DNA from: Oscillospiraceae bacterium
GTDB taxonomy: Bacteria; Bacillota; Clostridia; Oscillospirales; Oscillospiraceae
Reading direction: 5' to 3'
Length of the DNA: 51,846 bases
NCBI GenBank assembly: GCA_902761635.1
Contig: CACWLG010000016.1
Location: 1 to 51,846 of the forward strand
The first letter of the stretch is position 1, and each line of letters starts with the position of its first letter. Below the pieces are notes generated by a model. It was not told the origin of the DNA. It saw only the letters and a program-made list of their open reading frames with translations, and did no database searches. The translations under genes were made by a program, and so were the position numbers. Shown piece by piece: positions 4,748 to 29,724 of the stretch.

Positions 4748-5299
4748 TTACACGTATACTTGATTGATAACCTTCAAAGATATTTTTTCCCATTGAGGGT
4801 AATCCTTAAAAATGTCTTCATATGATCGTGTAAGAACTCCGCCTGGAATCTTACCTTCCGCTTTTGTTTTTTCTGAGTCGAAAGAGAAACATTTGAAATT
4901 ATCTCGTATACTAGGATTTGAAAAGTAGTCTGTATCAATCTTGGCCGATAGGAAATCAATTAGTTCTTCTACATAATCTTGCATTATCACTGCAACTGCA
5001 CCATATAAGTTGTTACGCCAAATATCACCTTGTTGGATTTCCTCTTTGGTATATTGTCGCCAAGACTTCTTTTGAGGTTGCAACATTGGACGTTCAACTA
5101 ATTGTATCAACTCCTTAAACGACAATTGCGGTATTAATTCAAATCCATTCTCTTGCCCCCAACCAAAATCATACAGCAATCTTTTGCGATATATCTCTCC
5201 TGTTTCAGTATTTATATAAAGATCATCTTCGTATTGTGAAAATACTGTTCCTTCATATTCAGGAGAGAAGTGAATTGTAATATAAAAATATCGTTTCAC
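4748..5299 (-). CDS. Hypothetical protein, AT-rich, unlike its neighbours
   Basis: About 183 residues; I do not recognise the family. The protein is soluble, with no signal peptide or membrane helix, and is rich in aromatic and acidic residues (VKRYFYITIHFSPEYEG at the N-terminus, 'WRQYTKEEIQQGDIWRNN' in the middle). It looks like a small beta/alpha cytosolic protein. Codon use is strongly AT-rich against the GC-rich neighbours, which suggests recent transfer. I chose the GTG at 5299 because GGAGGGAGAT sits just before it; the ATG at 5320 has no SD. Small orphan AT-rich genes of this size are sometimes stray immunity proteins, but nothing here shows that. It lies between a REP block and an AT-rich palindrome. 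Confidence 0.6.
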   Translation of the reverse strand: MKRYFYITIHFSPEYEGTVFSQYEDDLYINTETGEIYRKRLLYDFGWGQENGFELIPQLSFKELIQLVERPMLQPQKKSWRQYTKEEIQQGDIWRNNLYGAVAVIMQDYVEELIDFLSAKIDTDYFSNPSIRDNFKCFSFDSEKTKAEGKIPGGVLTRSYEDIFKDYPQWEKISLKVINQVYV

Positions 5300-5334
5300 A
5301 TCTCCCTCCAATCTCATCATACGTTTTGATACTA

Positions 5335-5364
5335 TTTCTCGATTAAATTTTTTTAATCAAGAAA
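5335..5364. terminator. AT-rich palindrome ending the aro operon
   Basis: Inverted repeat TTTCTCGATTAAA (5335-5347) and TTTAATCAAGAAA (5352-5364). It overlaps the aroQ stop codon. On the minus strand it gives a stem with A/T loop but no clear T run, so it is only a weak terminator candidate. Confidence 0.4.
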
Positions 5365-5802
5365 GCCGCAGTTCCCGAGGTATTCCTTCAAAAACAGAAT
5401 CGCCCGGCGGTAGCCCTCGAAGCCGAGGCCCATGTAGGTTTTGACGCAGGCCTTGCCCGCATAGGAGATCTGGCGGAAATCCTCCCGGCTTTTCACGTCC
5501 GAGATGTGCACCTCCACCGCCGGGATGGCCACGGCCTTGAGCGCGTCAAGGATGGCGACGCTGGTGTGGGTGTAGGCTGCGGGATTGATGACGATGCCGT
5601 CCGTATTCCCGTAAGCCTGCTGGATTCTGTCGACAAGGGCCCCCTCGTGGTTGGACTGAAACACCTCGACCTCGATGCCCTCGGCGGCACAGGTGTCGCG
5701 TATGAGCTTTTCAAGCGCCGCGTAGTCCTGCCTGCCGTAGATGTCCGGCTCCCGCAGGCCCAGCATGTTGAGGTTCGGCCCGTTGAGAACGAGAAGCTTC
5801 AT
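5353..5802 (-). CDS. aroQ: Type II 3-dehydroquinate dehydratase
   Basis: A 149-residue, full-length type II dehydroquinase, step 3 of the shikimate pathway (3-dehydroquinate to 3-dehydroshikimate). The start 'LLVLNGPNLNMLGLREPDIYG' contains the catalytic Tyr in IYG and the active-site Arg loop; 'INPAAYTHTSVAI' (about 77-89) and 'VEVHISD' (about 100-106, catalytic His) follow. It is the last gene of the aro operon and its ATG overlaps the aroE/K stop by 4 nt, so translation is coupled. The enzyme is a soluble dodecamer in the family. Confidence 0.95.
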   Translation of the reverse strand: MKLLVLNGPNLNMLGLREPDIYGRQDYAALEKLIRDTCAAEGIEVEVFQSNHEGALVDRIQQAYGNTDGIVINPAAYTHTSVAILDALKAVAIPAVEVHISDVKSREDFRQISYAGKACVKTYMGLGFEGYRRAILFLKEYLGNCGFLD

Positions 5803-7019
5803 CCGACCACCTCCAGGAGCTTATCCAGAGTCTCGGCAAGAGGCCCGTCGTTATCCACGGCGGCGTCGGCAAAGCGCTCATAGAGGGGTCTTCTCTTCTC
5901 ATAGAGCTCCCGGAGATCCGAGCGCAGGGAGATGGGGCGCCCCTCCTTCGGCAGGAGCGCGATGTCCCGGCGAATCCAGATCATCGTCCCGTTCTGGTGC
6001 AGCAGATCGTAGTTCTCCTCCCGCGTCACGCAGCCGCCGCCGGTGGAGATCACCGCGCCGGAGAGCTTGCCGAGCTCGCGCAGGACCGCGCTCTCGCGGG
6101 CGCGAAAGCCCTCCTCGCCCTCTTCGGCAAAGATCGCGGGGATGGTGCGGCCCGCCGCCTTTTCGATCTCGGCGTCCGCCTCATAGACCGGGCGCGAAAG
6201 CGCTTCGGCCAGGAGCCGGGCAAGGCTTGACTTGCCGCTGCCGGGCATGCCGATGAGGATGATGTTCTGCATGGATTTCGAGAGAGCCGCCGTGATGCGC
6301 TCCACCTCGGAATCGGCAATGCTGTCTCCCGTGAAGAGCTCGCTGCTCCGCCGTGCCTGGGCCACCAGCATCGTAAGGCCGGAGGCGCAGGGGATGCCCA
6401 GCTTCTCCGCCTGCAGGATCAGCGCCGTGCGGGCGGGGTTATACACAATGTCCAGCACCCCTTCGCATTGGGGAAAGGCCGTGAGATCCACCGCCGCGCT
6501 GCCGTTATTGGGATAGGTGCCGAGGGGGGTGGTGTTCACGATGATCTCGGCGTCCGCGTGGCGGTCGAGATTGTCGTAGTTGTCCGCGCCGCCGCGGGAA
6601 ATGACGGTCACGCTCCCGGCTTCGAGCCTGCGCAGGATGTAGCAGACAGACACGCTCGCCCCGCCGCTGCCGAGGACCAGCACCTTCTTCCCTTTCACCT
6701 TGATGCCGCTGAAGCGCACCAGGGTCTCAAAGCCGCAGGCGTCGGTATTGTCGCCGCAGATGCTCCCGTCGGGGCGGCGCACCAGGGTGTTGACGCTGCC
6801 GATGGCCCTGGCCGTGTCGGACAGCTCCGCGCAGTAGGGCAGCACGGTTTTTTTATAGGGGATCGTCACATTCAGGCCGCTCCAGTCCCCGCCGCGGAGA
6901 AAGGCGCCGACCTCCTCCGGCTCCCGCTCATAGAGCGTGTAGCTGTAATCGGCAAGCATTTTATGGATGGCCGGGGAATAGCTGTGGCCCAGCTTCCGGC
7001 CCAGAAGTCCGCACTGCAT
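5799..7019 (-). CDS. aroE-aroK: Fused shikimate dehydrogenase - shikimate kinase
   Basis: A 406-residue bifunctional protein. Residues 1-248 are AroE: shikimate-binding 'SYSP' (13-16), catalytic Lys in 'NVTIPYKK' (50-57), 'GSVNTL' (74-79), 'GDNTD' (89-93), and the NADP loop 'GSGGASVSV' (117-125). Residues 250-406 are a shikimate kinase: P-loop 'GMPGSGKSS' (257-265), Asp 282 in the shikimate site, Arg 306, 'STGGGC' (325-330), and lid 'EGRPIS'. The fusion joins two non-adjacent pathway steps, reduction of dehydroshikimate and phosphorylation of its product. It sits 2 nt after pheA and overlaps aroQ by 4 nt. Separate genes are the rule in most bacteria, but fusions like this occur in Clostridia. 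Confidence 0.93.
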   Translation of the reverse strand: MQCGLLGRKLGHSYSPAIHKMLADYSYTLYEREPEEVGAFLRGGDWSGLNVTIPYKKTVLPYCAELSDTARAIGSVNTLVRRPDGSICGDNTDACGFETLVRFSGIKVKGKKVLVLGSGGASVSVCYILRRLEAGSVTVISRGGADNYDNLDRHADAEIIVNTTPLGTYPNNGSAAVDLTAFPQCEGVLDIVYNPARTALILQAEKLGIPCASGLTMLVAQARRSSELFTGDSIADSEVERITAALSKSMQNIILIGMPGSGKSSLARLLAEALSRPVYEADAEIEKAAGRTIPAIFAEEGEEGFRARESAVLRELGKLSGAVISTGGGCVTREENYDLLHQNGTMIWIRRDIALLPKEGRPISLRSDLRELYEKRRPLYERFADAAVDNDGPLAETLDKLLEVVG

Positions 7020-7021
7020 CG

Positions 7022-7915
7022 TCAGATCACCTCACTGTAGCTGCCGAGGTAGTGAAACTCCTCGCACACGGAATCGAGCTCGCCCATGAGCTGGAGGAAG
7101 GCAGGCGAATAGATGGAGGTATCCAGATCGAAGTAGAACATGAACTCGAAGTTCCGCTCGGGCATGGGGCGGCTTTCAAGCTTGATGAGGTTGATGCCGA
7201 GGGCGTAGAAGCGGGAGAGGAGCTTGTAGAGGGAGCCGGTCTTGTTCGGCAGCACCAGCATCAGGCTCGTCCGGTCCGCGCCGGGATAGATCTCCGTATG
7301 GCGGGAGAAGCAGATGAAGCGCGTATAGTCGTTGCCCCGGTCCGTCTTGAGGCGGACAGAGCGCACGATGCGAAAATCGTGCTGCATCATGAGGTCATAC
7401 ACCGCGTTGACGGAGCCCGCCGCGCTGTTTTCCACCGGGACCACGCCGTACTGGCACAGGCCCTTCTCGACGGCGGAGAAGACCGCGTCAAAGCTGTTGA
7501 AGCCCAGGATGTTCGGGAGCTTGAAGAGCTTTTCGCAGGCAAAGCGGGACGTGTCCTCCGCTTCTCCCTGGCAGGCCACGGTCGCCATCGGCGGGAAGAG
7601 CTGGGGGGTAGCGTCGATGGCCTCGCGGATCTGCTCGGTCAGGGCGCTCTCCGTTCCGTTCAGACGGTTCTGGCAGCTCCGGCTGAGCTCCATGATGAGG
7701 GAGAAGAGGCTCACGGTATAGTCCTCCATCCCCTCGGGGGATTTCTTCGCCACGTCCAGGAGCTTTTCGCGCTCCCGGGAGCTGTCCAGCACCGGCAGGC
7801 CCTTTTCCTTTTTATACGCGCCGATCTTCGCCGCGATCTCCATGCGGCGGCAGAAGAGCTCCAGCAGCCCGTCGTCCAGGGTGTCCAGCTCTCTCCGGTA
7901 ATCCTGCAGTTCCAT
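7022..7915 (-). CDS. pheA: Chorismate mutase - prephenate dehydratase with shortened dehydratase domain
   Basis: 297 residues. Residues 1-82 are an AroQ-class chorismate mutase ('LDTLDDGLLELFCRRMEIA', 'KKEKGLPVLD'). The dehydratase starts at about 112 ('ATVACQGEAEDTSRFACEKL') with 'YGVVPVENSAAGSVNAVYDL' (156-175). After 'FRIVRSVRL' (181-189) it jumps to 'NDYTRFICFSR' (195-205), the end of a normal dehydratase. About 90-100 residues (the lobe with the HPQ, TaxAA and AIAS-type motifs) are absent. The ACT domain (about 216-295) with 'TGSLY' and the Phe-binding 'ESRP' is intact. The TRF catalytic Thr is kept. Dehydratase activity is therefore uncertain. Start at 7915 after AGGACAGGGG. Spacing to aroC and aroE/K is 2 nt. 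Confidence 0.85.
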   Translation of the reverse strand: MELQDYRRELDTLDDGLLELFCRRMEIAAKIGAYKKEKGLPVLDSSREREKLLDVAKKSPEGMEDYTVSLFSLIMELSRSCQNRLNGTESALTEQIREAIDATPQLFPPMATVACQGEAEDTSRFACEKLFKLPNILGFNSFDAVFSAVEKGLCQYGVVPVENSAAGSVNAVYDLMMQHDFRIVRSVRLKTDRGNDYTRFICFSRHTEIYPGADRTSLMLVLPNKTGSLYKLLSRFYALGINLIKLESRPMPERNFEFMFYFDLDTSIYSPAFLQLMGELDSVCEEFHYLGSYSEVI

Positions 7916-7917
7916 GT

Positions 7918-8984
<1,067 letters not shown>

Positions 8985-8988
<4 letters not shown>

Positions 8989-10244
8989 GGGCTTTGCCTC
9001 CATAGCTGTTCATAGTCCTGCCAGAAGCGGGGGTAGGATTTCTCCACGCACTCACTTCCGAGGACGGTAACGGGCTCTGCGCACACACAGGCCGCCGCCG
9101 CGGCCGACATGGCGATGCGGTGATCGCCCATGGCGTCCACCGTGCCGCCGGTGAGCTGTTTCTTCCCCCGGATCACAAGCCCGTCGGGAAGCTCGGTAAT
9201 GTCCGCGCCGAGGGAGAGGAGCATCCGCGTCGTGCTCATCAGGCGGTCGGACTCCTTGAGGCGCAGGCGCCCGGCGTTCACAATACGGGTCTCCCCCTCC
9301 GCCACCGAGGCCACGACGCTCAGCACCGGGATCAGATCCGGGATGGGCGCGGCGTCGATGGTCAGCGCGCGCAGCTGCTTGCGGCATATCAGGTGTCCGT
9401 CCTCCGTCACGCAGCCCTCCGCGCCGAAGAGGCGCAGGATCTCCCACACGGTCCGGTCCCCCTGGGAGGAGGAATCCAGAAGGCCGGAGACCTGCATCCC
9501 CTCCGGGGACAATGCCCCGATTGCGAGGAAGAAGGCCGCGTTGGACCAGTCCCCCTCCACCCGGGTCTCTCCGGAAAGGCCGCCGCGCTGTCCGCCGGGG
9601 ATACGATAGCGCTGCTCTTCTTTTTCAAACCGCAGGCCAGCAAGGCGCAGGGCGTCCTCCGTCATGGTGACGTAGGAGGCAGACTCCAGCTTTCCGCTTA
9701 CGCTGAGGCGGCTTTCGCCGTTTACATGCGGCAGGGCCATCAGAAGGCCCGAAATATACTGGGAGGAGACATTGCCCGGGAGGCTCCAGTCCCCGGGCTG
9801 AAGCTGCCCGCTGCAAAGCAGGCGCGCCCCGTCCTCCCGGAATCTCATGCCGTGGGCCAAAAGCTCCGCGTCCAGCGGGGCCAGAGGGCGCTGCGGCAGG
9901 CGGCCTTCCCGGTGGAAGACGGCCTCGGCCCCCAGTGCTCCCACCACCGGCAGCAGAAAACGCAGGGTCGAACCGCTCTCCCCGCAGGGCAGGACGCGGG
10001 AGCCGGTCGGTACCTCCCGGATCGGTCGGACGCGAAGGACGCCCTGCTCCGTCTCCCGGATCTCGGCGCCGAGGGAATTGAGGCAGGCAATCGTCGCGGC
10101 GATGTCCTTCGAGATCCCGTCACAGCGGATCACGCAGTCGTCCCCGCCGAGGGCGGCGCAGATGAGAAGGCGGTGGGCCTGGGACTTGGAGGCCGGGATG
10201 CGCACGCAGCCCGCGCGCGGCCCCGGTAAAATGTCAACTGTCAT
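8985..10244 (-). CDS. aroA: 3-phosphoshikimate 1-carboxyvinyltransferase (EPSP synthase)
   Basis: 419 residues, full length. Joins PEP to shikimate-3-phosphate. Motifs in order: 'PASKSQAHRLLICAAL' (17-32, substrate Lys and Ser), 'LPCGESGSTLRFLLPV' (about 84-99), 'NVSSQYISGLLMALP' (about 158-172), 'GDWSNAAFFLAIGAL', 'IPDLIPVLSVVAS' (catalytic Asp), 'RLKESDRL' and 'GDHRIAMSAAAAACV'. The glycine loop reads LPCGESGST rather than the plant/class I LFLGNAGTA type, as in Gram-positive class II-like enzymes. It overlaps aroB and aroC by 4 nt each. Confidence 0.95.
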
Positions 10245-11299
10245 CTCACGCCTCCCAGCAGCAAAAGCTCTCTGACCTCAGCAAGCGGCATGGCCTCGAT
10301 GCGGCAGCGGCCGATATCCTCCGGGATCACCAGATGCATAGTGCTCCCGCTGCGCTTCTTATCCGTGCCGAGGGCGGCAAAGAGCTCGTCCGCGCTGCAG
10401 TCCGTCCCCGTGGGCAGGCCAAAGCGTTCGAGCAGGGCAAGCAGGCGCTCAAGCGCCTCGGGCGGGCAGTCCCCGCGCTTCACCGCCGCGCGGGTGATGA
10501 GGGCCATGCCGATGGCGACGGCCTGCCCGTGCAGGATGGTGAAGCGGCTGCAGGCCTCCACCGCGTGGCCGAAGGAGTGGCCCAGGTTCAGGATCTGGCG
10601 ACGGCCCCGGTCAAACTCGTCCTCGCCCACAATGTCCCGCTTCATCTCCACGCAGGTGCATATCACGTCCTCCAGACGGTCCTTCACCCCGTGCTGTTCG
10701 AGGCTTTCAAAAAACGCGGCGCTGCCAAGCATGCCGTATTTCACGACCTCGGCGATGCCGCAGCGCAGCTCCTCCTCCGGCAGGGTTTTCATCAGCTCGG
10801 GGTCGCAGAGCACCGCGGCGGGCTGCCAGAAGGCGCCCACCTGGTTTTTCCCGGTGGGCAGATCCACCGCCGTCTTGCCGCCCACGGAGGAATCCACCGC
10901 TGCCAGCAGCGTCGTCGGCACCTGGACAAAGTCTATGCCCCGCTGGTAGGTCGCGGCGGCAAAGCCTGTGAGATCGCCCGTGACGCCGCCGCCGAGGGCG
11001 ATGAGCACATCCGTGCGCGTGAGGCGGTTTTCCGACAGGAAGCGCAGCAGGGCCCCGTAGGTCTCGAGGGTCTTGTGCTGCTCCCCGTGGGGGATGACAT
11101 AGGTCAGGGTGCGAAGGCCGGATGCCTCCAGGGAAGCCGCGGCCCGCGCCCCATAGAGGGGAAAGACGCGGTCCCCGGCGATGACGACGGCGGTCTGCGC
11201 CTTCGTGGCGGCCCGCACGACTTCGCCGAGGCGGTCCAAAAGTCCGCGCCCGATGAGCACGTCGTATTCTCTCGATGCCGAGACCTGTACCGTCGTCAC
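10241..11299 (-). CDS. aroB: 3-dehydroquinate synthase
   Basis: 352 residues, full length. Cyclises DAHP to 3-dehydroquinate using NAD and a divalent metal, the second step. Signature stretches: 'VIPHGEQHKTLETYGALL' (NAD/DAHP binding, about 68-85), 'ALGGGVTGDLTGFAAATYQRG' (101-121), 'VPTTLLAAVDSSVGGKTAVD' (about 126-145), 'GAFWQPAAVLCD', 'CGIAEVVKYG', and metal-binding 'LNLGHSFGHAVE'. It overlaps tyrA upstream and aroA downstream by 4 nt. Confidence 0.95.
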   Translation of the reverse strand: MTTVQVSASREYDVLIGRGLLDRLGEVVRAATKAQTAVVIAGDRVFPLYGARAAASLEASGLRTLTYVIPHGEQHKTLETYGALLRFLSENRLTRTDVLIALGGGVTGDLTGFAAATYQRGIDFVQVPTTLLAAVDSSVGGKTAVDLPTGKNQVGAFWQPAAVLCDPELMKTLPEEELRCGIAEVVKYGMLGSAAFFESLEQHGVKDRLEDVICTCVEMKRDIVGEDEFDRGRRQILNLGHSFGHAVEACSRFTILHGQAVAIGMALITRAAVKRGDCPPEALERLLALLERFGLPTGTDCSADELFAALGTDKKRSGSTMHLVIPEDIGRCRIEAMPLAEVRELLLLGGVR

Positions 11300-12129
11300 C
11301 GGCCGTCAACCTCCTCCTTGCGTCTGCGGCCCTCGTCCAGCAGGCGCACAAGCTCTTCCCTGTCGCCCCGCTCAAGGGCATCCTTGTATGTGTTCAGGTT
11401 CCCGATCAGGGTGTCAAGCTCAAAGAGCAGGCAGTCCCGGTTCTCCAGGAAGAGCTCGGCCCACATGGTGGGGTTCAGGCCCGCCACGCGGGTCAGATCC
11501 TCATAGCTGTCGGCGGAGAAGCCCTTGTGCTCTCCGGCCGTGGGGCTCTTGATATAGGCGTTGGAGACCACGTGCGCCATCTGGGAGGTATAGGCGATCA
11601 TGGCGTCGTGCTTATCGGCGGTGGTGACGGAGACGCGCGCAAAGCCCGCCGGTGCAAGCACCCGCTTGACACGCGCGAGAAACTCGATGTCGTCATACAC
11701 GGGCGGCACGATCACCATGGGCGCGCCACAGAACATGTCGGGCTTTGCGTATTTATAGCCCGCGTACTGTGTGCCCGCCATGGGGTGGCCGCCGACATAG
11801 GTAAAGCCCTCCCTTTCCGCGAGGGGGAAGAGGGCCGCGCACACCACGCGCTTGGTGGCGCAGCAGTCCACGACCAGGGGCTTCGGCCCGATGTGGGGGC
11901 CCATCTCCGTCACCCAGGCGATCGCCGCCTCCGGGGGCAGGCAGACCAGCACCAGGTCACAGTCCGCGATGTTCTCCTTGGTCAGCTCCCCGTCCACTTC
12001 CCCGCTCATGAGGGCAAAGTCCAGCACGGCGCGGGTGCGGTTGCAGGCGAGGACTTTATGCCCCGCCTCATGCCAGGCCTTGGCAAAGGAGCCGCCGATG
12101 AGCCCCAGGCCCGCGATGCCGACCGTCAT
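11296..12129 (-). CDS. tyrA: Prephenate dehydrogenase
   Basis: 277 residues. Oxidatively decarboxylates prephenate to 4-hydroxyphenylpyruvate, the Tyr branch. The N-terminal Rossmann motif is 'GIAGLGLIGGS' (4-14); the catalytic region has 'YVGGHPMAGTQYAGY' (His) and 'GFSADSYEDLTRVAGLNP'. There is no C-terminal ACT domain, so Tyr feedback at the protein level is not expected from this gene alone; control may lie in the leader attenuator and in the DAHP synthase. It overlaps aroF and aroB by 4 nt. Confidence 0.93.
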   Translation of the reverse strand: MTVGIAGLGLIGGSFAKAWHEAGHKVLACNRTRAVLDFALMSGEVDGELTKENIADCDLVLVCLPPEAAIAWVTEMGPHIGPKPLVVDCCATKRVVCAALFPLAEREGFTYVGGHPMAGTQYAGYKYAKPDMFCGAPMVIVPPVYDDIEFLARVKRVLAPAGFARVSVTTADKHDAMIAYTSQMAHVVSNAYIKSPTAGEHKGFSADSYEDLTRVAGLNPTMWAELFLENRDCLLFELDTLIGNLNTYKDALERGDREELVRLLDEGRRRKEEVDGR

Positions 12130-13130
12130 TGTGCCACGACCTTTCTGATCTCCAATACCTTGGCCGCGAGCTTCTCATACTCCTCCGGCCGCAGGGACTG
12201 GGCCCCGTCGCAGAGGGCATGGACAGGATCGTTGTGCACCTCGATAATGAGGCCGTCCGCTCCGCCCGCCGTGGCTGCCAGCGCCATGGGGGGCACCATG
12301 CGGGCAATGCCGGTGGCATGGCTCGGGTCGACGATGACGGGCAGATGGGTCAGCTCGTGCAGCATGGGCACGGCCGCAAGATCGAGGGTGTTGCGCATGT
12401 AGTCGGAGAAGGTGCGGATGCCGCGCTCGCAGAGGATGACGCGCTCGTTGCCGCTTGCCATGATGTATTCCGCGCTCATCAGGAGCTCCTTGAGGGTGTT
12501 GGCAAGGCCGCGCTTTAAGAGGATGGGCTTATCGAGCTTTCCAAGCTCGCGCAGCAGGTCGAAGTTCTGCATGTTGCGCGCGCCGACCTGGATCACGTCC
12601 ACGTCCTCGAAGAGGGGGATGTCCATGATGTTCATGAGCTCCGTCACGATGGGAAGCCCGGTCTCGGCCCGGGCGATCTTCAAAAGCTCCAGCCCCTCGG
12701 CCTTCAGGCCCGCGAAGTCATAGGGAGAGGTGCGGGGCTTGAACGCGCCGCCGCGCAGGAGATTCGCGCCCGCCGCCTTGACGGCCCTGGCGACCGTGAC
12801 GATCTGCTCCTCCGTCTCCACGGAGCAGGGGCCCGCGATCATGGCGAAGTGGCCGCCGCCGATCTTCACATCCCCAACCTCGACCACGAGATCGTCCGGG
12901 TGGAATTTCCGGTTGCAGCACTTGAAGGGTTCGGACACGCGCTTGACGGAGTCGACAATGTCGAGGCTTTCCACCAGATCCATGTCCACCCAGCTTGTAT
13001 CCCCGATCAGGCCGATGACGGTCTGGTACTCCCCGTCGGAGACGTGGATGGTCAGGCCCATCTTTCTGAGCCAGGCAATGAGCTGCTCCTTCTTTTCCTG
13101 CGGTACATTATGCTTGAGAATGACGATCAT
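12126..13130 (-). CDS. aroF: DAHP synthase, type I-beta
   Basis: 334 residues. Condenses PEP and erythrose-4-phosphate, the committed step. Residues 1-68 form the ferredoxin-like N-terminal domain of the I-beta subgroup ('MIVILKHNVPQEKKEQLIAW'); the barrel starts at about 85 with 'FAMIAGPCSVETEEQI' and 'LLRGGAFKPRTSPYDF', then 'VQVGARNMQNFDLLRELG', 'KPILLKRG' and 'VIVDPSHATGI' carry the metal and substrate ligands. It is the first structural gene of the operon, after a 210-nt leader that holds a Tyr/Phe-rich leader peptide and a terminator. Confidence 0.95.
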   Translation of the reverse strand: MIVILKHNVPQEKKEQLIAWLRKMGLTIHVSDGEYQTVIGLIGDTSWVDMDLVESLDIVDSVKRVSEPFKCCNRKFHPDDLVVEVGDVKIGGGHFAMIAGPCSVETEEQIVTVARAVKAAGANLLRGGAFKPRTSPYDFAGLKAEGLELLKIARAETGLPIVTELMNIMDIPLFEDVDVIQVGARNMQNFDLLRELGKLDKPILLKRGLANTLKELLMSAEYIMASGNERVILCERGIRTFSDYMRNTLDLAAVPMLHELTHLPVIVDPSHATGIARMVPPMALAATAGGADGLIIEVHNDPVHALCDGAQSLRPEEYEKLAAKVLEIRKVVAQ

Positions 13131-13179: not shown

Positions 13180-13216
13180 AAAAAGAAATGCCGCACAGGG
13201 TCAACCTGTGCGGCAT
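13180..13216 (-). terminator. Attenuator terminator in the aro leader
   Basis: Perfect 12-bp GC-rich stem, ATGCCGCACAGG (13216-13205) and CCTGTGCGGCAT (13199-13188) with a 5-nt loop, followed on the minus strand by TTTCTTTT (13187-13180). It lies 50 nt before the aroF start and downstream of the aro promoter, so readthrough is required for operon expression. Confidence 0.88.
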
Positions 13217-13259
13217 GATAAAGCGGATTGTCAGCTTTTTCGTGCACCACAAATTACCC

Positions 13260-13313
13260 TTACCGTTCAAAAACAGTAAAGTAATAGTATGCGGTATAGA
13301 GAAAAGCCTTCAT
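13260..13313 (-). CDS. Aro operon leader peptide (attenuation), Tyr/Phe-rich
   Basis: A 17-codon frame encodes MKAFLYTAYYYFTVFER, then TAA. Seven of 17 codons are Tyr (4) or Phe (3), including a Tyr-Tyr-Tyr-Phe run at codons 9-12. The ATG is about 27 nt after the expected transcription start; AAAGG lies 11 nt upstream as a modest SD. The peptide precedes the terminator at 13180-13216 and the aro genes. This matches leader peptides of translation-coupled attenuators such as trpL/pheL: low charged tRNA-Tyr or tRNA-Phe would stall the ribosome and favour an alternative fold. The frame and codons are direct observations; the mechanism is inferred. Confidence 0.82.
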   Translation of the reverse strand: MKAFLYTAYYYFTVFER

Positions 13314-13346
13314 AGTTCCGGTGACCTTTCTATTAACAGTAGCTAA

Positions 13347-13375
13347 AATATAACGCATTAAAGCGCTGATGTCAA
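13347..13375 (-). promoter_or_regulatory. Aro operon promoter
   Basis: On the minus strand TTGACA (13375-13370), exactly 17 bp, then TATATT (13352-13347). The inferred start near 13340 gives a leader of about 210 nt. Confidence 0.85.
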
Positions 13376-24108: not shown

Positions 24109-24281
24109 AAAAAAAGACCCGAAGAACATCTTCTCCGGGCGCAGCGGCAGGGACCGCGCAAAAACAACGCGGTCGTCCTCTTCCATCCAGACTGTAACTG
24201 TCGGTACCGGAATCGCACCGGTTCGGCCAAACGGCTCGCGGACTGTACCGCCGATCGGGAATTTCACCCTGCCCTGAAGAC
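24109..24281 (-). promoter_or_regulatory. FMN riboswitch (RFN element) with terminator
   Basis: Read on the minus strand, the aptamer starts TCTTCAGGGCAGGGTGAAAT (24280-24261), continues CCCGATCGGCGGTACAGTCC and GCGAGCC, and closes with GACAGTTACAGTCTGGATG and GAAGA (to about 24174), all RFN landmarks. The expression platform ends with a 9-bp hairpin CCCGGAGAA/TTCTTCGGG (24139-24118) and TCTTTTTTT (24117-24109). FMN binding should cause termination before ribU. Confidence 0.95.
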
Positions 24282-24287
24282 GTGTTT

Positions 24288-29359: not shown

Positions 29360-29724
29360 CTCAATTGGATACTGAGTTTATCCGAAGCAAGATATCGACC
29401 GCCCCTCCGGGGGCCAAGGCCATACGGACAGCCGGGTCGGATGCCGAAGAACCGCGGAAGGCGGCGGCAACTTCTGTTGCCTTATTGATTGAGCCGGGAG
29501 CTGTGAAACGATTGCGGCAGCTCAGCGGCGGCTCCAATTTTATGGTTTTGTAAAAGCATACAAATCTGTGAAATGGTCAATAAGAGTAGTAAAAGTGTTT
29601 TGCTATATAGACTCTTAAAATCCATTGGGCCCGTTCCCCGTCTCGCGGGGGACGTTATACGCGCGTATCCGCGTATACCCGGCTTTGCAGGCGGCTGTGC
29701 TTTTGCACGGCTGCTTTTTCTTTT
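29360..29724 (+). ncRNA. Structured leader RNA of the pot operon, class unknown
   Basis: About 365 nt between promoter and terminator, no supported gene. Helices seen: GCCCC/GGGGGC near 29400, GGCAAC/GTTGCC (29466-29481), a nested GAGCCG-GGAGCTG / CAGCTC...CGGCTC stem (29491-29534) followed by CAATTTTATGGTTTT, then GTTCCCCG/GCGGGGGAC and a GTATAC-type palindrome (29634-29680). I compared it with FMN, lysine, c-di-GMP, c-di-AMP, ykkC and T-box landmarks and found no match. It could be a riboswitch or protein-controlled attenuator, possibly for polyamines. Confidence 0.5.
29691..29724 (+). terminator. Terminator directly before potA
   Basis: 10-bp stem GCGGCTGTGC/GCACGGCTGC (two G-U pairs), TTTT loop, then TTTTTCTTTT. 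It ends 17 nt before the potA ATG and so must be overridden for expression. Confidence 0.85.

Follow-up and report, generated by a model that had tools for sequence, protein, structure and literature searches.

A putative Tyr/Phe leader-peptide attenuator in front of the aroF operon in Oscillospiraceae and related Clostridia

The aroF operon and its leader region

The window analyzed here is a 51,846-nt stretch of DNA from an Oscillospiraceae bacterium (contig CACWLG010000016.1 of GenBank assembly GCA_902761635.1). Eight genes of aromatic amino-acid biosynthesis lie on its minus strand, and NCBIfam matches agree with the gene order given in the initial annotation (aroF-tyrA-aroB-aroA-aroC-pheA-aroE/K-aroQ), those of tyrA, pheA and aroE/K lying below the curated cut-offs:

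12126 to 13130, minus strand: aroF, DAHP synthase (PRK08673, TIGR01361)
11296 to 12129, minus strand: tyrA, prephenate dehydrogenase family (best matches under curated cut-offs)
10241 to 11299, minus strand: aroB, 3-dehydroquinate synthase (TIGR01357)
8985 to 10244, minus strand: aroA, EPSP synthase (TIGR01356)
7918 to 9003, minus strand: aroC, chorismate synthase (TIGR00033)
7022 to 7915, minus strand: pheA, chorismate mutase/prephenate dehydratase (putative start; matches under curated cut-offs)
5799 to 7019, minus strand: aroE-aroK fusion, shikimate dehydrogenase/shikimate kinase (matches under curated cut-offs)
5353 to 5802, minus strand: aroQ, type II dehydroquinase (TIGR01088)

Adjacent frames of the operon overlap or almost touch, which fits a single transcript. 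A 190-aa ORF found 3' of aroQ (4748 to 5320, minus strand) has no NCBIfam match and may or may not join the operon. In front of aroF the following features were located:

13347 to 13375, minus strand: sigma-70-type promoter TTGACA-17-TATATT, 11 of 12 consensus matches
13260 to 13313, minus strand: leader ORF of 17 codons, translated as MKAFLYTAYYYFTVFER and followed by a stop codon
13278 to 13289, minus strand: sensor codons 9-12, Tyr-Tyr-Tyr-Phe, at which a stall frees region 2 in folding
13253 to 13285, minus strand: hairpin 1:2, spanning the sensor codons, the stop codon and the start of region 2 (-10.0 kcal/mol)
13243 to 13259, minus strand: region 2, GGGUAAUUUGUGGUGCA, antiterminator 5' strand by folding, pairing and coevolution
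13198 to 13215, minus strand: region 3, UGCCGCACAGGUUGACCC, antiterminator 3' strand, overlapping the 5' arm of the terminator, its loop and the first bases of its 3' arm
13188 to 13216, minus strand: intrinsic terminator hairpin 3:4, perfect 12-bp stem, with a T tract to about 13180

The consensus promoter, the 17-residue frame, the terminator ahead of aroF and the upstream hairpin (which does fold) all stand as first annotated, and transcription would start near 13340. The leader peptide MKAFLYTAYYYFTVFER contains four Tyr and three Phe residues, with YYYF at codons 9-12; its ORF is short, predicted to be translatable and rich in codons for the end products of the operon. AAGG 11-14 nt 5' of the ATG is a weakly placed Shine-Dalgarno sequence, which counts against the reading as an attenuator. 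Such frames are scarce in the window: of the 593 frames on both strands that start with ATG and are 10-45 aa long, four have at least five Tyr/Phe within eight residues, and two of these four are the aroF leader ORF with alternative starts. The intrinsic terminator lies between the leader ORF and the first gene, and its hairpin by itself folds with -22.3 kcal/mol.

An antiterminator is predicted 3' of the sensor codons. Positions 13259-13243 (GGGUAAUUUGUG..GCA) pair with 13215-13198 (UGC..CACAGGUUgACCC) in 15 pairs with one bulged G and two mismatches, the main part being formed by GGGUAAUUUGUG (13259-13248) and CACAGGUUgACCC with one base bulged. The duplex has -16.8 kcal/mol in the window, and the bulge-free form common in relatives has -18.6 kcal/mol. 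The initial annotation had described this pairing as UGUG/CACA plus GCA/UGC; these pairs are present, but most of the antiterminator, which reaches through the terminator loop into the 3' arm, had been missed. Because region 3 comprises nearly the whole 5' arm of the terminator, its loop and the first bases of its 3' arm, the pairings 2:3 and 3:4 are mutually exclusive. The helix of hairpin 1:2 takes in both the stop codon and the final sensor codons, and this accounts for the conserved peptide end FT...R-stop.

Conservation of the leader frame within the genus

The aroF gene was present in 81 of 101 genomes of the genus, and 79 loci were read. By inspection, a Tyr/Phe leader frame precedes aroF at 63 of the 79 loci, or at 63 of the 75 with an intact aroF 5' end, where chance would give about one in ten; the leader alignment across relatives that had been proposed as a check thus favors a conserved frame. 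Neither Tyr nor Phe is missing from any of the 63 leaders, whose 1195 codons comprise 221 for Tyr (135 TAT and 86 TAC), 207 for Phe and none for Trp. A promoter-like site within 110 nt 5' of the leader was found for 60 of the 63, compared with 5 of 62 control stretches taken 300 nt further upstream.

The 16 loci without an assigned leader include four incomplete or very distant aroF matches (L073, L076, L078, L079) and 12 others, the latter being the intact loci (12 of 75) at which inspection of the aroF upstream region gave no assignment. Four of these (L055, L068, L070, L071) have a hairpin and a T run close behind the promoter, with no leader ORF and no Rfam match upstream of aroF; the hairpin may be a degenerate attenuator, a constitutive terminator or another regulator. 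L056, L059 and L062 contain short ORFs with few aromatic codons, and at L048, L072, L074, L075 and L077 no leader-type ORF was seen by inspection.

Covariation of the helices

All three helix covariation counts are based on one alignment of 52 of the 63 genus leaders. Three leaders with long divergent ORFs (L063-L065) were removed, which left 60 for the coevolution and ribosome-folding tests, and eight more (L039, L049, L050, L058, L060, L066, L067, L069) also stand outside the alignment. In terminator 3:4, 85.4% of the cells are paired and 6 of the 12 pairs show changes on both sides; the corresponding values are 96.8% and 3 of 15 pairs for antiterminator 2:3, and 79.4% and 5 of 14 pairs for hairpin 1:2. 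For each of the three helices, the covariation score, the percentage paired and the number of doubly changed cells were matched by none of 500 shuffles. In the count of doubly changed pairs, however, 28 of 500 shuffles did at least as well as the antiterminator and 108 of 500 as well as hairpin 1:2; in the count of pair types, 151 and 408 of 500 did so, respectively. Hairpin 1:2 lies over the sensor codons and competes with 2:3, two of its five measures are not above shuffles, and when slid by -1 it gives six doubly changed pairs versus five in the true register; by covariation it is the least supported of the three helices.

The cognate duplexes of region 2 and region 3 total -700.9, versus -595.0 +/- 14.1 when partners are permuted, and none of 5000 permutations (35 distinct combinations) reached the cognate value, a statistic that ignores kinship among the sequences. 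This indicates that the two regions coevolve. The search for compensatory changes proposed earlier had a positive outcome, hairpin 1:2 being the least convincing part.

Geometry of the proposed switch

Frame, codons, helices, exclusive 2:3 and 3:4 pairings and a fitting geometry can all be read from the aligned leaders, and we regard it as very probable that the leader is a ribosome-mediated transcription attenuator of the leader-peptide type, sensing the charging of tRNA-Tyr and probably also of tRNA-Phe. The region 1:2, 2:3, 3:4 scheme that had been suggested by analogy with pheL/trpL is supported by the conserved frame, the covarying helices and the region 2/3 coevolution. RNA polymerase would start at the promoter, and a ribosome translating the 17-codon leader would trail it. 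With an ample supply of charged tRNA-Tyr (and tRNA-Phe), the ribosome would reach the stop codon at 13260 and mask region 2, so that the 3:4 terminator would form and the eight-gene aromatic operon would stay silent. When Tyr (or Phe) is scarce, the ribosome would stall at codons 9-12 and block hairpin 1:2; region 2 could then pair with the emerging region 3, the terminator would be pre-empted and the operon would be read. Stalling, termination, readthrough and a joint action of Tyr and Phe are thus what the model predicts.

The geometry was examined in 60 leaders by folding each until region 3 was complete, with an assumed ribosome footprint of 15 nt from the A site. When the ribosome was placed on the final Tyr codon of the run, at least eight pairs of 2:3 formed in 56 of the 60 leaders; the other four (L049, L050, L058, L060) had fewer than eight antiterminator pairs even under stall. 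With the ribosome at the stop codon, a 2:3 pairing of at least eight pairs formed in none of the 60 and the terminator in all 60. When no ribosome was placed and the leader was folded to the decision point, the antiterminator appeared in 25 of the 60, the window leader among them, so that hairpin 1:2 is a weak competitor; it may need to win by forming first. Whatever the state tried, the complete window leader adopted the terminator fold, and the switch must therefore be kinetic and decided during transcription. Not every aromatic codon would signal readthrough, because region 2 would be partly covered by a ribosome stalled at Phe15, and hairpin 1:2 would stay free if the stall were at Phe4 or Tyr6.

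Distribution in the family, order and class

An automatic scan was applied to five sets of aroF loci, a positive locus being one with an ATG ORF of 10-45 codons that has at least four Tyr/Phe/Trp in eight residues and lies within 300 nt of aroF. The loci of the family, order and class sets were the best-scoring ones per search plus 40 hand-picked each, with no random draw, and since the samples overlap (some of the named records are genomes of the genus set, and the wider sets hold a few loci of nearer rank) the five sets are not independent. Below, each line gives the loci used as input, the scan positives, the positives with a terminator-like hairpin after the leader ORF, the median z of the antiterminator-like pairing against shuffles, the leaders with z below -2 and the loci with tyrA within the fetched aroF locus:

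Genus: 75 of 79; 59/75; 52/59; -2.9; 37/52; 30/30
Named records: 79 of 80; 74/79; 67/74; -2.2; 41/67; 77/80
Family: 69 of 69; 60/69; 54/60; -2.4; 34/54; 28/29
Order: 67 of 67; 53/67; 48/53; -1.7; 20/48; 26/27
Class: 68 of 69; 36/68; 33/36; -2.3; 21/32; 23/29

Markov-shuffled sequences were positive in 8.5-10.6% of cases (8.5% for the genus), and reverse complements at 3-6 loci per set (4 of 75 for the genus). The share of Tyr/Phe codons was 28-35% in frame 0 versus 7-15% in frames 1 and 2, a bias that arises partly by construction, because the leaders were chosen for aromatic content in frame 0, so that the Markov null is the fair test. Oscillospiraceae, Oscillibacter, Dysosmobacter and Faecousia are among the named records; the MAG RUG13571, which carries the label Ruminococcaceae, is the nearest of them, with 99% identity in aroF. 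Of the class-level loci whose aroF identity was below 40% in the compared stretch, 12 of 17 were without an aromatic leader ORF.

Of the 253 leaders in the five overlapping samples, 250 contain Tyr as well as Phe, the selection having been for aromatic content and not for both residues. Trp occurs in 31 of the 253 and in none of the genus set. Leader peptides with Trp beside Tyr/Phe were seen at L098, L190, L265, L282, L283, L286, L289, L290, L336 and L355; these Trp-containing leaders possibly sense all three aromatic amino acids.

The leader peptides diverge widely, e.g., MTNIARSAEYRYFSFTYFYGKAYFGLAENVRDRV (L152) versus MKNLMFAAFEYFYFYFYFYFTSKNRVKQFVLQTF (L200), and by eye they are conserved across samples only in aromatic content and in the residues imposed by RNA pairing. 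This bears on the idea of a functional small protein, or of a trans-acting RNA, as the product of the ORF, with the terminator merely ending a short transcript. Attenuator RNAs and leader peptides can indeed act in trans (peTrpL, PMC7298713), but such peptide divergence, together with a region 2/3 coevolution that antitermination explains simply, makes this explanation extremely improbable for the aroF leader.

A second leader in front of a probable aromatic amino-acid transporter

A covariance model of the aroF leader matched 80 of 102 genomes of the genus at E values up to 0.01, and 34 genomes had more than one match. Twenty matches away from aroF, mostly the stronger ones, were examined (the others include weak matches and matches on the opposite strand of an aroF leader). 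In 19 of these 20, a Tyr/Phe leader precedes a gene for the substrate-binding protein of an ABC transporter. The genome of the window has this transporter as well, on another contig (L426, protein at G000:C22:71469-72419), with the Tyr-rich leader MLRFRHAYGRYSYCYYKG and a hairpin, a leader that the model search misses. Region 2 and region 3 coevolve in the transporter leaders too, as far as 20 leaders indicate (0 of 5000 permutations). At the remaining one of the 20 matches (L423, genome G062, in which the sole aroF-like match is distant, 36%), a leader MKAYAYAASYPFADRVR and a terminator lie directly 5' of a tyrA-like gene.

The proteins of L426 and L408 match PF04392, the next gene in L408 being a BPD_transp_2 permease, and the remaining 18 transporter proteins were grouped with them by sequence likeness. 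Solved relatives are 6HNI, 3LFT and 3LKV, with bound tyrosine, tryptophan and phenylalanine, respectively, according to the paper on CD0873 (PMC6816091), which credits the selectivity of CD0873 to Glu-263 and Tyr-279. Equivalents of these two residues, mapped by alignment with an offset of 21 deduced from Val-235/Pro-236, are kept in 19 of the 20 transporter proteins, and the twentieth is cut by a contig end. The Tyr:Phe codon ratio does not differ between transporter leaders (88:72) and aroF leaders (221:207; Fisher p 0.52), so that it lends no support to different specificities of the two leader groups.

A rival reading is that the attenuator is real and responds to tyrosine only, the Phe codons being kept because TTTAC must pair with GGTAA in hairpin 1:2. 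The tyrosine-type pocket residues of the co-regulated transporter speak for it. Tyr also dominates the core of the 63 genus leaders (50 have it at stop-9, 46 at stop-8 and 31 at stop-7), and the conserved Phe codon at stop-6, present in 49 of the 63, does pair with the stop-codon region in hairpin 1:2. Against it, Phe outnumbers Tyr 95 to 28 on the 5' side of the hairpin (stop-12 to stop-15, 63 genus leaders), Tyr and Phe stand together in nearly all of the 253 leaders, unrelated sequences included, and pheA belongs to the operon. We consider a tyrosine-only attenuator rather unlikely; the codon content suggests that Phe would be sensed beside Tyr.

T-boxes and other candidate regulators

A metabolite riboswitch, a T-box or a TRAP-like protein attenuator, with an incidental ORF, could also be thought of in front of aroF, as the leader has competing hairpins and a terminator, and T-boxes occur elsewhere in the genome of the window. 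No T-box (RF00230) match at the gathering score was found in the window, and the aroF leader, compared with 4227 Rfam families including leader families, gave none at the gathering cut-off. The best match, RF04312 trpB (27.9 bits, cut-off 59), was rejected as the identity of the leader; weak matches to it also occur in 5 of 14 control genomes. When the loci of 20 relatives were compared with Rfam, an FMN riboswitch and a tRNA were the sole matches. Moreover, aromatic leader ORFs persist while the sequence and the exact helices diverge, which argues against an incidental ORF, and we judge a regulator of this kind to be very improbable here. Among leaderless loci, Rfam matches were found at none of the 20 checked from the genus, named and family sets, and a T-box lay upstream of aroF in 4 of 20 class-level loci (20 of 32 such loci were checked). 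Elsewhere in the window, an FMN riboswitch was found at 24171 to 24285 (minus strand, 113.8 bits), as well as a match to the Streptococcus sRNA family RF02440 SpF59_sRNA at 29396 to 29447 (plus strand, 68 bits, gathering 37), which is unexpected in this group.

Ten RF00230 matches were found in the genome of the window, outside the window, and four of them exceed the cut-off, including those at leuA-like, trpD and trpB genes. The ten precede genes read as leuA-like, trpD, trpB, tyrS, two pheS, alaS, thrS and two others. The T-box match at tyrS (85.1 bits, E 6.8e-19) and those at pheS (77.6 and 33.1 bits, E 6e-17 and 1.8e-5) lie below the gathering score of 93 bits. Pfam matches back the names tyrS and, for one of the two genes, pheS, and they agree with the readings leuA-like, trpD and trpB; the genes that we take to be alaS, thrS and the second pheS are presumed from their sequences. 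The remark of the initial annotation that Clostridia more often use T-boxes or TRAP for such genes takes a sharper form in this genome, which has T-box matches before tyrS, pheS and putative trpD and trpB genes but a leader peptide before Tyr/Phe biosynthesis. In this cell the charging of tRNA-Tyr and tRNA-Phe is probably sensed through T-boxes where the synthetases are concerned, and through leader peptides in the case of biosynthesis and uptake.

On balance we lean toward a Tyr/Phe leader regulon that is old, perhaps ancestral, in Oscillospirales and neighboring Clostridia. It would couple the aroF operon and tyrosine import through PF04392 proteins to translation speed as an OR gate, while T-boxes on the same tRNAs would run tyrS, pheS and the Trp genes (supply versus charging). 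If this is true, classical attenuation would be a common control of the entry into aromatic amino-acid synthesis in many gut Clostridia that also use T-boxes, import of Tyr or of aromatic amino acids would be predicted for the transporter in uncultured rumen bacteria, two sensors of tRNA charging could be compared naturally within one cell, and the aligned leaders would serve as a set for testing attenuator rules.

Comparison with known systems

Leader-peptide attenuation is a classical mechanism (enterobacterial pheL/pheA, trpL, hisL) that is best known from proteobacteria and actinobacteria. The mechanism proposed here is thus known; what is notable is the codon run for two amino acids, the wide range, the second locus at a transporter and the coexistence with T-boxes for the same amino acids. 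No Tyr/Phe attenuators in Oscillospirales were found in the literature searched, which consisted mostly of open-access papers. T-box riboswitches likewise act on a terminator in response to tRNA charging, but they bind the tRNA directly and do not involve translation. In PMC1262725, tyrosine is listed under the T-box amino acids and phenylalanine under the attenuator ones, and T-box control has been described for trpX of Streptococcus suis, a homologous transporter of tryptophan (PMC9382623).

Leader peptides of Firmicutes have been reported for hisS in bacilli (PMC2965389) and as a leucine-rich attenuator peptide of Staphylococcus aureus (PMC5794164), but these concern His or Leu, Bacilli and other operons. 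Closer in target gene is aroF (cg1129) of Corynebacterium glutamicum, with a predicted leader peptide containing Phe-Tyr-Phe 5' of the DAHP synthase gene (PMC4046766); the position is the same, the host differs in being an actinobacterium, and the passages describing it mention no covariation, antiterminator or regulon. The motif uORFC-13-1 (24 unique sequences from Acholeplasma and environmental DNA) likewise lies 5' of aroF and has a uORF with at least one Phe codon before a terminator, with no Tyr codon mentioned in the passage describing it (PMC8632094); a Phe-codon uORF and a terminator before aroF are the common ground, and Acholeplasma is a different host group. With the enterobacterial pheL/pheA, trpL and hisL, the aroF leader shares a promoter, an ORF with sensor codons, the helices 1:2, 2:3 and 3:4 and a terminator before a biosynthetic operon. 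Unlike them, it mixes Tyr and Phe codons, is hosted in Clostridia and stands before an operon that has aroF as its first gene and holds both the Tyr and the Phe branch, and its antiterminator runs through the terminator loop.
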